Below are positions 28,418 to 34,093 of a DNA stretch of 64,000 nucleotides, piece after piece. The stretch is from Phaeovibrio sulfidiphilus (lineage in GTDB: Bacteria > Pseudomonadota > Alphaproteobacteria > Rhodospirillales > Rhodospirillaceae): assembly GCF_014861485.1 (NCBI RefSeq), contig NZ_JACZHT010000001.1, positions 248,001-312,000 of the forward strand. Direction: 5' to 3'. The notes under the pieces were generated by a model that ran no database searches, had not been told where the DNA came from, and worked only from the letters and a program-made list of their open reading frames with translations. The position numbers were made by a program, and so were the translations under genes. How positions within the stretch are numbered: position 1 is the first letter of the stretch; each line of letters starts with the position of its first letter.

Positions 28418-30025
28418 CTAGCGCCCCTCCCAGCGGATGGCCATCAGGGCGATGTCGTCGCTCTGGGCCTGATCCTTCCGGAACTCCCCCACGTCCTCCA
28501 GAACGCGGTCCACGATCTCCCGGGCGCTGCCCGTGCTGGCAAGGGGCGCCAGGGCCTTCTCCAGGCGATCGGCGGTGTACTGGTCCCTCTGGGGGTTCAT
28601 GGCCTCGGTCACGCCGTCCGTATAGAAAACCACGGCGTCCCCGGCACCAAGCTGGATGGTCCCGATGGTGTAGACCGTGTCCTCGAACAGCCCCAGGGGC
28701 TCGCCCCCCACCTTCTCGATGCGCCGGGCTGTTCCCTCGGCGCGGTTGAGGACAATGGCCGGCTCATGCCCCGCATCCACGTAAGTGACCCGCCCGGTCT
28801 CCATGTTCAGGACACCGGCCACCAGGGTCACGAACATGCCCTCCGGGTTGTTGCGCAGCAGGGTCTGGTTCACGGCGGTCAGGGCGTTCTGGAGGTGCTC
28901 GGGATCGTCCCGGACGGCGGCCCCCAGGAGCGTCTTGGTAATGGCCATGAACAGGGCCGCGGGGAAGCCCTTGTCCGACACGTCCCCGATGACAAAGTAC
29001 AGGTGGCGGGAATCGATGGGGAAGAAATCATACAGGTCGCCGCCCACGGCCTTTGCCGGATCGACAACGGCGTACAGATCCACGTTCCGGGCAATGCGGA
29101 CGTCAAAATTGTTGGGCAGGAGGCCCATCTGGATGGCCCGGGCCGCAGAGACCTCGTCCTCCATCTTCTGTTTCTGCTGGTAGGTCTCCCGCAGGGTGAC
29201 CAGATAGAACTCCAGGCGGGTCAGGAGGGATTCAAACCCGGAGGCCAGGGTCTCGATCTCCATAACCCGCTCGTTCTTGAGGGACTCGATCGAGGCCTTG
29301 ATGCTGGCATCCGGCTTGAAGTTGTCCTCGGCCAGCCGGGCCATGTCGCTGGTCAGCGTGCCCAGGCTCTCGGTCGCCCGCCCCACCAGCGAGCGCGACA
29401 GCATCACCCCCACGGAAATCAGGACAAGGCACAGGGCCGTCGCGGTCAGGAACTGGAGCCGGGCCGACGCGTTCAGATCCCGGGTGGTCAGGCTCAGAAG
29501 AAGGGCGCTGGAGGTGTCCACCTGGCCGTGGGGAATGGGCACCGCAACCAGCAGCATGGGCGGATCCAGAAAGAGAAACGACCGGGGTGTGTAGGCGATC
29601 CGCGACAGGGCCTGCCCCTCCACCAGGGCCTGCTTCACAAGGCGGATGTCCTCCTCGGTGGCCTCCCCCGCATTGACGGAAAAGAGAACCCGCCGCCGGG
29701 CGTCAAACAGCCGGATGCTCTCGATGTTGTCGTGGGAGGCCAGCCGCTCCAGAAGGGTCCGGGCGTCGCCGGACAGCCCGCCCGCGTCCGAGACCGCCCC
29801 CGCGGCCCCCAGGCGGTCGGCAATCAGGGTGGCGATGGTCTCGCTCTGGGAGCACAGCCGCACCACCGTCGCCCGAAGGGACACGAAGCCCGTCACCGTC
29901 GCGGTGGACAGAACCGCCACCGCGATGAGGACGGCAAAAAGGGTGCTGAGGGTCGAGCGCAATGCGATCCGTGCACGGGGTCTGGAGGCAGACTCGCGGG
30001 ATGTAGGAACCTCTTGCGCGCTCAT
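28418..30025 (-). CDS. Membrane-anchored SpoIIE/RsbU-type serine phosphatase with HAMP linker
   Basis: 535 residues. A transmembrane helix at ~24-50, an extracytoplasmic sensor domain to ~190 and a second helix (FLTATALCLVLISVGVML, ~190-212) are followed by a HAMP-like segment and coiled coil. A PP2C-type SpoIIE phosphatase domain follows (from ~310). Metal-binding aspartates sit in GGDLYDFF, GDVSDKG, YTDGVTEA and SDDIALMA. Such proteins dephosphorylate anti-sigma-factor antagonists in partner-switching systems, but no antagonist or anti-sigma gene is next to it. The start was chosen at MSAQEV (GGGAG 7 nt upstream). The upstream neighbour, 16 nt away, is a small membrane protein on the same strand, likely in one operon. 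Confidence 0.9.
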   Translation of the reverse strand: MSAQEVPTSRESASRPRARIALRSTLSTLFAVLIAVAVLSTATVTGFVSLRATVVRLCSQSETIATLIADRLGAAGAVSDAGGLSGDARTLLERLASHDNIESIRLFDARRRVLFSVNAGEATEEDIRLVKQALVEGQALSRIAYTPRSFLFLDPPMLLVAVPIPHGQVDTSSALLLSLTTRDLNASARLQFLTATALCLVLISVGVMLSRSLVGRATESLGTLTSDMARLAEDNFKPDASIKASIESLKNERVMEIETLASGFESLLTRLEFYLVTLRETYQQKQKMEDEVSAARAIQMGLLPNNFDVRIARNVDLYAVVDPAKAVGGDLYDFFPIDSRHLYFVIGDVSDKGFPAALFMAITKTLLGAAVRDDPEHLQNALTAVNQTLLRNNPEGMFVTLVAGVLNMETGRVTYVDAGHEPAIVLNRAEGTARRIEKVGGEPLGLFEDTVYTIGTIQLGAGDAVVFYTDGVTEAMNPQRDQYTADRLEKALAPLASTGSAREIVDRVLEDVGEFRKDQAQSDDIALMAIRWEGR

Positions 30026-30041: not shown

Positions 30042-30353
30042 CTAGAAGGGGCGATGGGGGGGCTTCGTCTTCTTCCGGGAGGAGCCCCAGAGCCCCAGGT
30101 AGCGGGCACACAGGGCCATGAAAATCACGCCGGCCAGTAGGGCAAGGCCAACCTCTCCGGCGGTCCAGCTTTCCCGGTGCGCGTAGCCCAGGGCCGGAGC
30201 CGAGGGATAGGGCTGCATGGGCTGAATCGGTTCGGGCCAGAAGGACGAGGATTTCGGCGGAGCCACCTCAGGCTGGGCCTGGACCGGGAGGGACTCCACC
30301 GGAGTTTCCGACGCAGACGCACCGCTGTGCGGTTCGGAAGTGTCTAAGGGCAC
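30042..30353 (-). CDS. Small single-pass membrane protein, unknown function
   Basis: 103 residues starting at a GTG preceded by a consensus AAGGAGGA 6 nt upstream, one of the best ribosome-binding sites in the window. Longer in-frame starts lack one. The N-terminal ~65 residues are Pro/Ser/Glu rich; one hydrophobic helix (GEVGLALLAGVIFMALCARY) precedes a short basic C-terminus. It lies 16 nt upstream of the SpoIIE phosphatase gene, so it may be a partner or regulator. No family was recognised. Confidence 0.65.
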   Translation of the reverse strand: MPLDTSEPHSGASASETPVESLPVQAQPEVAPPKSSSFWPEPIQPMQPYPSAPALGYAHRESWTAGEVGLALLAGVIFMALCARYLGLWGSSRKKTKPPHRPF

Positions 30354-30540
30354 GCGATGTCCTCCTTTGGACTGGCGCGGCTCCCGTCCTGCCGGCTGCG
30401 AGCCCTGAGGCCACCACGGCAGAACGCAAAAGGGATCCGGAGCCCCGACGGGCCCGGTCCGGAAACAGCGCAATCGAAGTGTCAAATGGACGGGGACGTC
30501 CGGGGCTGCTCTTCAGTCTAGAGCCTAACCAGAAAACGCC

Positions 30541-30696
30541 AAAAAGAAAACCCCGTCCGGGAGGAGAGAACCGGACGGGGTTTGGCCGCTTTCCCCAGAT
30601 TGACTTCCGCCAGGCGATGCGTCCCCTTTGCTGGCGGAGGTCGATGCGACCGGACATGGAAAGAAGCGGCAGAACTAGAAGTCAGGAGTGCCTTCT
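30541..30696 (-). ncRNA. Candidate Fur-regulated small RNA
   Basis: The predicted ~155-nt transcript begins about 7 nt after a -10 element and ends at a strong intrinsic terminator. Internal structure is plausible: GTCAG/CTGAC near the 5' end, a near-perfect 12-bp stem (GACCTCCGCCAG / CTGGCGGAAGTC, 30603-30643), and the terminator stem. The terminator loop reads UUCUCUCCUC, complementary to GAGGAG-type ribosome-binding sites, as in anti-Shine-Dalgarno loops of known regulatory RNAs. The only internal ATG frame has no ribosome-binding site and runs through the terminator, so it is probably non-coding. No known RNA family was recognised. Confidence 0.55.
30548..30583 (-). terminator. Strong intrinsic terminator of the candidate sRNA
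   Basis: A perfect 13-bp stem (AAACCCCGTCCGG / CCGGACGGGGTTT) with a 10-nt pyrimidine-rich loop is followed on the minus strand by TCTTTTT. The nearest upstream minus-strand gene ends about 740 bp away, so it most likely serves the local transcript. Confidence 0.85.
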
Positions 30697-30703
30697 GACG
30701 ACG

Positions 30704-30732
30704 ACTATCCAGCAACTGATAATCATTGTCAA
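30704..30732 (-). promoter_or_regulatory. Sigma70-like promoter overlapped by a Fur box
   Basis: The -35 TTGACA (30732-30727, six of six consensus) and -10 GATAGT (30709-30704) are separated by exactly 17 nt. The plus-strand sequence TGATAATCATTGTCA at 30717-30731 matches the 7-1-7 Fur motif TGATAAT-N-ATTATCA at all but one position. It lies across the -35 and spacer, where Fur-Fe2+ would block RNA polymerase. Confidence 0.65.
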
Positions 30733-31003
30733 CATAGAAAACGCATCTTTTTTCATCCGGGGGAAAAAATCCACCCGAAGCAGGCCCACGGATCGGCGCC
30801 GAGGCCGGATTTCCCGGGTTTCCGGGGGACATCCCGGGCCGTCGGGCAAAAAGGAAGCGGGGAGCGGACAGAAAGCCGCACCGGCTGTGCCGCCCGCACG
30901 GGCCGAAAGGGGGGCCGGGACCGTCTTCCCGGGCAGACTCCGGCGGACGCGGGCGGAAACGGGACCGGATCGGGGCTCACGTGGGCAGGGACTCGCAGGC
31001 TCC

Positions 31004-31144
31004 GGCAAGACCACCGGCGGCGCGACCGGATCGGGGGTGGACACCGAAGCGACCCGCGGGCTCCGGCAGGACTACACAAGGAACGACCGGCTCAGGGCCG
31101 ACACCACAGGAATCGGCAAGACCACCGGCGGCGCAACCGGATCG
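31004..31144. repeat. 30-bp direct repeats in the spacer downstream of the helicase gene
   Basis: GGCAAGACCACCGGCGGCGC and the following 10 bases occur at 31004 and again at 31115 with one mismatch. The intervening sequence contains weaker relatives. Confidence 0.8.
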
Positions 31145-31321
31145 TGGCCGACGCCACAGGACTGGCGGGGGCGGACACACACCCTCACGGCGCCCGGTGG
31201 GGCCCCCTCTGCCCCCGTCGGGACACTCGGCCCCCGCTCGCGTGCGGACAATCGCCACGCCCCCGGCCCTGCCCCCCTGCGGACGGATCCACGCGCGCCG
31301 GAGGCCCGGCGGCCTGCAGGA

Positions 31322-34093
31322 TCAGGGCTCTCGCGGAGCACCCCCGTTCTCGGCCCGGACAATGGCCACGGCCTCCGCCAGCCCGACCCTCTCCACCACC
31401 ACACCGGGGGGGAAGGCGCTCAGCAGGCGCGACGGCGTGCGGGAATCCAGCATCACAAACACACCCCGGTCCCGGCTGGAGCGCACAAGCCGCCCGAAGG
31501 CCTGTTTCAGGCGCAGGCGGGTGATGCGGTCGTCGTACCGGGTCTTGCCCCACACGTCCCGCCGGGCCTTGTGGAGGATGTCCGGGCGGGGCCAGGGGAC
31601 GCGATCGAAGACAATCAGGCGCAGGGACCGCCCGGGCACATCCACACCGTCGCGCACCGCATCCGTCCCCAGCAGGCAGGAATTTTCCTCCTCCCGGAAG
31701 ATGGACACCAGCGTGCCCGTGTCCATGGCGTCCACGTGCTGGGCGTAGAGGGGCAGGTTCTGGCGGGCCAGCTCCGGCGCAATCCGGTCGTACACCGCCC
31801 GCAGACGGGACACGGCCGTGAACAGCCCCAGCCCCCCGCCCCCCGAGGCCCGGAACAGGGCGGACACGGCACTGGCCACCCGGTCGGGCACGTCCCGGGC
31901 CACGTCGGTGACGATCAGCACCCGGGTCATGGAGGGGTAGTCATAGGGCGAGGCCACCGCGGCCCGGATGGCCGGCTCCTCCAGGTGGATGGCCCCGGTG
32001 CGGCACTCCGCCACCCGCCACGAGGCCTCCGGGTCCGGATCGTTCGCGGACAGGTCACGCAGCGTGGCCGAGGTGATCACCACCCCCTGGGCCGTGCGGG
32101 ACAGAACACCGGCGAGCGGGCGGGTCGGATCGATCCAGTGGCGGCACAGCCCCACGTCCAGCTCCTGACCGTCGCTGCGCTCCACCGCCAGCCAGTCCAC
32201 AAAGCCGTCGGGCGTGGGCTCCCCCAGGCCGCGAACGATATCGCGCCAGGCCCTCAGGGGCGCAATGACCCGCCACTCCAGGGACCGGGCCAGGGACTCG
32301 ATCCGGTGGCGCACCGCGCTGTCCAGGGTCTCGGCCTCCGCGTCCAGGCTCTTGAGCAGGGCCCGGCTGAACTGCTGAAGGGGGGTGAACAGGGCCTCCA
32401 GCGCCTCGCGGGCGGCCGGTGCGCAGTCCACAAGGGCCTCCGAGGCGGGGACCACCTCGGTTTCCAGGCTGTGCCCCCGCTCGCCGTCCCGGGCCCGGGC
32501 GTGGACCTGCTCGCGGAAGGCGCCCAGAAGGGCCTCCAGAGGGCCAAGGGGCGAGCCCCCCGCAAGACGGGCCTGCCAGCCCATGGAGGGAAGGACCGAG
32601 GCCGCGGCCAGCGCGTCATCCAGAAACTCGGCGGCGTCCGTATCCGCCTCGAACAGGCCTTCCGCCCGGCGCTTCAGGCCCCGCCCCCGGGAGCGGGCCC
32701 CGGCGTCCTCGGCGCCCAGAAGCCAGCGGCGCATCTCCATGCCCTCCTGGGCCGTGACATGGACCGCAAAGGCCGAATCCGCCGCATCGAACAGGTGGTG
32801 CCCCTCGTCAAAGACGTAACGGGTCGGGTGGCTGTCGTCGTCCAGGCCGCCCAGAGCCGCCTGAACCAGGACCAGCGCGTGATTGGCCACCACAAGGCGT
32901 GCCTGCCCCGCCCGCCGGACGGCGCGCTCGACAAAGCAGCGGTTGAAGTGGTCGCAGCCCGAGAAGATGCACTCGCCGCGCCGGTCCGCAAGGCCCAGGG
33001 TGCGCTCGCGCCCCGCCAGGTCCGCCAGCCAGCCGGGGAAGTCGCCGCCCATCATGTCGCCGTCCCGGGTGGCCTCCGCCCAGCGGGCCATCAGGCCCAG
33101 GGGGACCGCCTCCCGCGGACTGGCGCCGATCCGGCGGACGGCCTCCTCCAGGTTCAGAAGGCACAGATAGTTTTCCCGCCCCTTGCGCACCACCACGTGG
33201 CGCGCCTTCTCCACCGGGTCGGGGTAGAGCCGGTCCAGCTCCTGGTCCAGCTGGCGCTGAAGGTTGCGGGTGTAGGTGCTGATCCAGACCGCGCCGCCGT
33301 TCTTCTCGGCCCACAGGCTGGAGGGCGCGATATAGCCAAGGGTCTTGCCGACCCCGGTCCCGGCCTCCGCCAGGACCACGTTGGGTGCGTTCTTCCGCTT
33401 TCCCGGAGTGAAGGCCGGGCACACCGCCGAGGTGTAGTCCGCCTGCTGGACCCGATGCTCCGAATCCGCGCCCAGAAGGGACTTCAGCCGGGCCCGGGCC
33501 TCGTCCGGGGTGACGGACAGGTTGCCCGGAGGCGGCAGGGGCGGAAACTCGGGGATCTCGGGCAGGCGCGACCAGACGGCAAAGGCCCGCGACGCGCCGC
33601 TGCGGGGCTCGGGTCCGGCACCCAGGGCCTGGAGAACCGGGAACGTCCATTCCCAGCCGCCCCGGCCCATGACCTCGGCCAGACCCACCGCGGTCTCCCG
33701 TTCCTTCGAGGCTGTCCGGGCCAGCCGGGCAAACAGGGCCATGGCCGCCGCCGGAAGCACAAGGGCCTCGGCCTCCAGGCTGTCCGGAGGCGCCGTCCCC
33801 AGCGCGCGGGCAAGGCCTCCAGGGGTCGGCGAGGCAAACTCCGCCGGGCAGGCAAAGGCAAACAGCTCCATCAGGTCGAAGGCGGGGAACCAGGACAGGC
33901 CAAGGCGCCGGGCCACGTGAAGCCGGTGGCACACCATGGGGCGCAGGCTCTCGATGCGGGACTGGAGACCCACACCGGGGCGGACGGTCTCGATCTCGCC
34001 GCCGGGGAACACCAGGACGCCCCCCTCCGCCCCGACGGCCAGGGCCGGAACAGGAGGCGGGTAGACGGGAGCGTGATCCGGCGGATGGGGCAT
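31322..34093 (-). CDS. DinG/YoaA-family ATP-dependent DNA helicase (XPD-like, Fe-S)
   Basis: 923 residues of superfamily 2, XPD-like 5'-3' helicase. Walker A is AEAGTGVGKT (~residue 240) and the DEAH-box variant is FDEGHH (~429). Fe-S-cluster cysteines lie in YLCLL and CIFSGCDHFNRC (~308 and 377-389). Motif III-VI regions include ITSATL and a QAFGRLVRSSRDRG arginine-finger segment. A ~200-residue N-terminal region without recognised motifs precedes the helicase core. It likely unwinds forked or R-loop/D-loop structures during repair. It stands alone, with GC-rich spacers on both sides. Confidence 0.92.
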   Translation of the reverse strand: MPHPPDHAPVYPPPVPALAVGAEGGVLVFPGGEIETVRPGVGLQSRIESLRPMVCHRLHVARRLGLSWFPAFDLMELFAFACPAEFASPTPGGLARALGTAPPDSLEAEALVLPAAAMALFARLARTASKERETAVGLAEVMGRGGWEWTFPVLQALGAGPEPRSGASRAFAVWSRLPEIPEFPPLPPPGNLSVTPDEARARLKSLLGADSEHRVQQADYTSAVCPAFTPGKRKNAPNVVLAEAGTGVGKTLGYIAPSSLWAEKNGGAVWISTYTRNLQRQLDQELDRLYPDPVEKARHVVVRKGRENYLCLLNLEEAVRRIGASPREAVPLGLMARWAEATRDGDMMGGDFPGWLADLAGRERTLGLADRRGECIFSGCDHFNRCFVERAVRRAGQARLVVANHALVLVQAALGGLDDDSHPTRYVFDEGHHLFDAADSAFAVHVTAQEGMEMRRWLLGAEDAGARSRGRGLKRRAEGLFEADTDAAEFLDDALAAASVLPSMGWQARLAGGSPLGPLEALLGAFREQVHARARDGERGHSLETEVVPASEALVDCAPAAREALEALFTPLQQFSRALLKSLDAEAETLDSAVRHRIESLARSLEWRVIAPLRAWRDIVRGLGEPTPDGFVDWLAVERSDGQELDVGLCRHWIDPTRPLAGVLSRTAQGVVITSATLRDLSANDPDPEASWRVAECRTGAIHLEEPAIRAAVASPYDYPSMTRVLIVTDVARDVPDRVASAVSALFRASGGGGLGLFTAVSRLRAVYDRIAPELARQNLPLYAQHVDAMDTGTLVSIFREEENSCLLGTDAVRDGVDVPGRSLRLIVFDRVPWPRPDILHKARRDVWGKTRYDDRITRLRLKQAFGRLVRSSRDRGVFVMLDSRTPSRLLSAFPPGVVVERVGLAEAVAIVRAENGGAPREP

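Follow-up and report, generated by a model that had tools for sequence, protein, structure and literature searches.

The intergenic region downstream of dinG in Phaeovibrio sulfidiphilus contains a candidate gene for a Fur-controlled small RNA. In our best reading, to which we assign about an even chance, it specifies a trans-acting, Fur-repressed RNA of ~157 nt with an iron-sparing function, the terminator loop of which would pair chiefly with the aconitase gene acnA. The features of the locus are given below in coordinates of the window, that is, the whole 64,000-nt stretch of DNA that was analysed.

30727..30732, minus strand: -35 hexamer TTGACA, 6/6 consensus matches
30704..30709, minus strand: -10 hexamer GATAGT, 4/6 consensus matches, 17-nt spacer
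30717..30731, no strand assigned: Fur box TGATAATCATTGTCA, one mismatch to TGATAATNATTATCA, overlapping the -35 hexamer and the spacer
30541..30697, minus strand: predicted small RNA, ~157 nt; start placed 7 nt after the -10 hexamer, end at the terminator
30548..30583, minus strand: intrinsic terminator hairpin with 13 perfect pairs; U-tract at 30541-30547
30561..30570, minus strand: terminator loop UUCUCUCCUC, proposed anti-Shine-Dalgarno seed
31322..34093, minus strand: upstream flanking gene, DinG-type helicase
30042..30353, minus strand: downstream flanking small ORF; GTG start preceded by AAAGGAGG, one apparent membrane segment (by eye)
28418..30025, minus strand: next gene, SpoIIE-type phosphatase with an N-terminal sensor region

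A preliminary description of this DNA had proposed three aligned minus-strand signals, namely a promoter, a Fur box and a terminator, and all of them were found where it had placed them, in the correct order and with the correct spacing. The sigma70-type promoter indeed combines a perfect TTGACA (30732-30727) with a 17-nt spacer and GATAGT (30709-30704), thus matching the consensus in 10 of 12 positions; promoter-like sites occur here at a frequency of 2 per 3.5 kb versus 0.1 in shuffled sequences. The Fur box, which differs from the 7-1-7 motif by one mismatch as had been claimed, covers five bases of the -35 hexamer and ten bases of the spacer. From its predicted start (~30697) the RNA would extend over 157 nt to its end, and the whole gap between the flanking genes spans ~970 nt (30354-31321). 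Its part between dinG and the small RNA, at 30940-31180, also contains imperfect direct repeats (GACCACCGGCGGCGC(G/A)ACCGGATCG...).

Systematic counting of Fur boxes in the 2.59-Mb genome revealed three with at most one mismatch to the 7-1-7 motif, versus none for a backwards control pattern, and 23 versus 6 when up to three mismatches were allowed. The box at the small RNA locus is the second-best in the genome, tied with a box near sdhC; given the excess of box counts over the control, it is not a chance occurrence. The only perfect Fur box (contig C12 of this genome, 2091-2105) lies ~530 nt upstream of petABC (Rieske protein, cytochrome b; petA start near 2642). The sdhC box, with one mismatch, is situated ~200 nt upstream of that gene (contig C26, position 257913) and fits the direct regulation of sdh by Fur that has been described in Caulobacter. 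Boxes with two mismatches were found upstream of feoB and of an MFS transporter gene, and another near a gene whose product resembles a copper ATPase at its N-terminus (assigned by eye). Since the best boxes adjoin petABC, sdhC, feoB and a transporter gene, the motif is evidently used in this genome, in connection with iron. A single Fur-type protein, a single IrrA and Hfq are encoded, and in basal alphaproteobacteria such as Rhodospirillales Fur has been retained as the global iron regulator (PMC3751524). Binding of Fur at 30717-30731 is strongly indicated by the sequence.

The petABC box is located far from the genes for a normal promoter, and a weaker terminator-like hairpin follows it within ~110 nt; the two elements could belong to a second short RNA or to a long leader.

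The 13-bp perfect terminator, expected ~150 nt downstream of the promoter, was also confirmed: its predicted folding energy is -24 kcal/mol (z -5.7) and it is followed by UCUUUUU. Intrinsic terminators of this strength are scarce, with three of this class in the 64-kb window and about 25 in 464 kb, so that by our estimate a correctly oriented one would fall into the ~200 nt downstream by coincidence in roughly 0.5% of cases. The fold of the entire RNA has a z-score of -3.7 because of the terminator, and the part outside it has an ordinary fold, comparable to that of shuffled sequence (z -1.1); the terminator is the sole structurally special part of the predicted RNA. No closed reading frame fits into the predicted RNA ahead of the terminator, and a search of Rfam gave no match at gathering scores, in agreement with the earlier statement that no known RNA family is recognisable. 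The suggestion of RyhB/PrrF-like control by Fur holds in part, as the sequence gives good support to a short noncoding transcript controlled by Fur, while the parallel to the role of RyhB and PrrF is confined to the logic.

Among about 25 terminators in 464 kb, only the one at the small RNA locus has an anti-Shine-Dalgarno loop. The complementarity of this loop to purine-rich ribosome-binding sites, noted previously, extends in full to that of acnA, where UUCUCUCCUC faces GAGGAGAGAG over 10 nt with nine Watson-Crick pairs and one G-U pair; the match is exactly the acnA Shine-Dalgarno sequence, 3 nt before the ATG. Aconitase is a 4Fe-4S enzyme, and its choice for testing, as one of the classic targets in iron sparing, preceded any inspection of its start region. 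Against a background of 306 genes from a 464-kb genome sample, acnA ranked first in predicted pairing (-16.3 kcal/mol, z -3.7), with both the loop and the acnA site predicted to be open (0.0 and 0.8 kcal/mol; loop 0.01 kcal/mol). Engagement of the complete ten-base loop in pairing may cause steric strain. Comparison of 30 acnA starts in the family showed the full-loop match in the P. sulfidiphilus genome only (next best -13.1), and several of the other starts contain GAGGAGA or GAGGAG. The target prediction by loop pairing thus yields acnA as a plausible iron-rich target and gives no support to the other classic ones, sdhC and ferritin, which do not stand out in the ranking. Since shuffled loops brought acnA to the first rank in 6% of trials, the pairing is suggestive of acnA as a target of the loop, not proof.

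We consider it unlikely, though deserving of serious attention, that the Fur-repressed RNA is real and the acnA match fortuitous, its actual partner being a target of another RNA segment or a protein. The loop is a generic anti-Shine-Dalgarno sequence, and other iron genes are unremarkable in pairing; when the loop was shuffled, acnA ranked first in 6% of trials and its energy was reached in 2%, the respective values for random loops containing CUCCUC being 1.7% and 0.7%. However, a genome-wide search for the loop complement GAGGAGAGAR detected just five trans sites in 2.59 Mb, and acnA alone among them has it as a convincing ribosome-binding site. One further site (GAGGAGAGAA, contig C1, 451603-451612, minus strand) is a full loop complement ~90 nt upstream of an indolepyruvate-ferredoxin-oxidoreductase-like gene, which likely encodes another Fe-S enzyme. 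The remaining sites have no convincing start, one of them lying inside a long frame and abutting a GTG.

The search of related genomes that had been proposed as a check of the small RNA returned no homologue: DNA comparison found none in 316 further genomes of this order, all from other genera, with 60 relatives searched as well. Similarly, no Fur box with up to two mismatches occurs downstream of dinG in the relatives, and the genes downstream of the small RNA were not found beside dinG there. According to these searches, the putative small RNA gene is either lineage-specific or too diverged to be seen. The single match kept from the DNA search, in genome G012, comprises the terminator only; it was rejected as a homologue in view of its different flanking genes, different loop and lack of a Fur box. 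At this locus (contig C67, 1514-1550) the near-identical terminator stem is preceded by an inverted repeat TTGCGAATGCG..CGCGATTGCG, and it represents perhaps another small RNA or a common GC-rich terminator. Two other matches were dismissed as chance, one inside a long reading frame (L005) and one between a tRNA and another gene (L004).

In the 28 genomes of the family with Fur boxes, we also screened these boxes for lookalikes combining a promoter with a terminator and lacking an ORF. The best of these, in a distant family member (G022:C73:962-976), is a perfect Fur box upstream of a ferric-iron-binding-protein-like gene and adjoining hemH. It was rejected as a small RNA, the box being explained by the substrate-binding-protein gene and the terminator by hemH.

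This lookalike, in which box and terminator likely belong to two flanking genes, illustrates an improbable interpretation of the P. sulfidiphilus locus: transcription of dinG would run on as far as the terminator, and the promoter with its Fur box would yield either no RNA or an antisense one. It is in line with the position of dinG as the next upstream gene on the minus strand, and with a 9/12 promoter-like site present on the plus strand too. On the other hand, the terminator lies ~740 nt past dinG, and the plus strand has no gene to serve, unlike the locus in the distant relative.

About as improbable is a Fur-controlled leader, in which the hairpin would act as an attenuator or allow partial read-through into the downstream membrane-protein gene (the small ORF, which has no Pfam family match) and the SpoIIE-phosphatase gene. 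Both genes are on the same strand, with the first start ~190 nt past the terminator, but nearly all transcripts should terminate at a hairpin of 13 pairs followed by a U-tract, and no competing antiterminator fold was seen in the predicted structures. Finally, the promoter is very improbable as the driver of a small protein from the only ATG, 41 nt into the RNA (30657), and we dropped this reading: the frame passes through the hairpin with no stop before the terminator, and it has neither a Shine-Dalgarno sequence nor a Pfam match.

The reading as a trans-acting small RNA suggests the following mechanism. When iron is present, Fe-Fur would occupy the box over the -35 hexamer and spacer and, judging from its position, block RNA polymerase. 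Under iron shortage the RNA would be made, ending at the strong hairpin as a transcript of ~157 nt. Its open 10-nt terminator loop could then pair with ribosome-binding sites rich in purines, primarily the one of acnA, and this pairing is predicted, with moderate support, to lower aconitase translation. Hfq may assist the pairing, given that the genome has an hfq gene and that the RNA would end in a suitable U-tract. Repression of acnA would spare iron and complement the Fur boxes located directly at sdh and pet. We tentatively propose, at somewhat less than an even chance, that this is a recently arisen, lineage-specific Fur-box small RNA, the terminator loop of which doubles as an anti-Shine-Dalgarno seed directed at aconitase, and that it stands in for Fur at a target lacking a direct Fur site.

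Fur-controlled iron-sparing small RNAs are known in enterics, pseudomonads, neisserias and Gram-positive bacteria. In Caulobacter, a well-studied Fur-using alphaproteobacterium, no iron-sparing small RNA with a Fur box was found (PMC6120978, PMC11005374), and a survey there reported no conserved Fur box at iron-induced small RNAs (PMC6120978). As far as the literature consulted shows, a Fur-box small RNA would be new for the alphaproteobacterial group, the kind itself being known. If confirmed with aconitase as its target, it would represent another independent origin of the Fur iron-sparing circuit and show a terminator loop serving as a seed.

Caulobacter Fur directly activates iron-enzyme genes (PMC6120978, PMC3751524), and the Fur boxes near sdhC and petABC suggest a similar arrangement in P. 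sulfidiphilus. A difference concerns acnA, the promoter of which is bound by Fur in Caulobacter (PMC6120978), whereas the P. sulfidiphilus acnA lacks a Fur box within 300 nt. RusT of Caulobacter crescentus is likewise an iron-starvation small RNA of an alphaproteobacterium with Hfq; it is, however, under the control of NtrYX, lacks a recognisable Fur box and acts mainly on outer-membrane transporters (PMC11005374), in contrast to the candidate with its Fur box.

The anti-Shine-Dalgarno motif in hairpin loops is shared with αr14 (NfeR1) of Sinorhizobium (PMC10746234, PMC3927594) and the AbcR small RNAs, and in the Rfam αr14 model (RF02344) it also occurs in the terminator loop. We rejected membership in this family. 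The αr14 model, whose terminator-loop motif makes it the most noteworthy of the weak matches, scored 23.6 bits at a cut-off of 58.8 (E 0.011 on 261 bases), while unrelated terminators in control stretches give similarly low E-values to other families. In addition, αr14 has three hairpins, each with CCUCCUCCC, whereas the candidate has one loop with UUCUCUCCUC, and NfeR1 answers to nitrogen regulators, not to Fur. Because unrelated terminators reach comparable E-values, the resemblance to αr14 is a likeness of design rather than demonstrated kinship.

With RyhB, PrrF, NrrF, FsrA and IsrR the candidate shares a Fur box over the promoter, an intrinsic terminator and, by prediction, an iron-enzyme target. 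It differs from all five in carrying its seed in the terminator loop, and its transcript is a predicted one. The Rfam models of RyhB, PrrF, NrrF and FsrA gave no match at the gathering score and were absent from the sub-threshold matches. The design of the putative seed resembles that of NfeR1/αr14 (PMC10746234) and that of FsrA, in which a C-rich motif binds Shine-Dalgarno sequences (PMC9410917). Several Fur-repressed iron-sparing small RNAs are mutually unrelated and yet share targets such as aconitase (PMC9410917), and the candidate is best regarded as similar to RyhB or FsrA in logic, not by homology.
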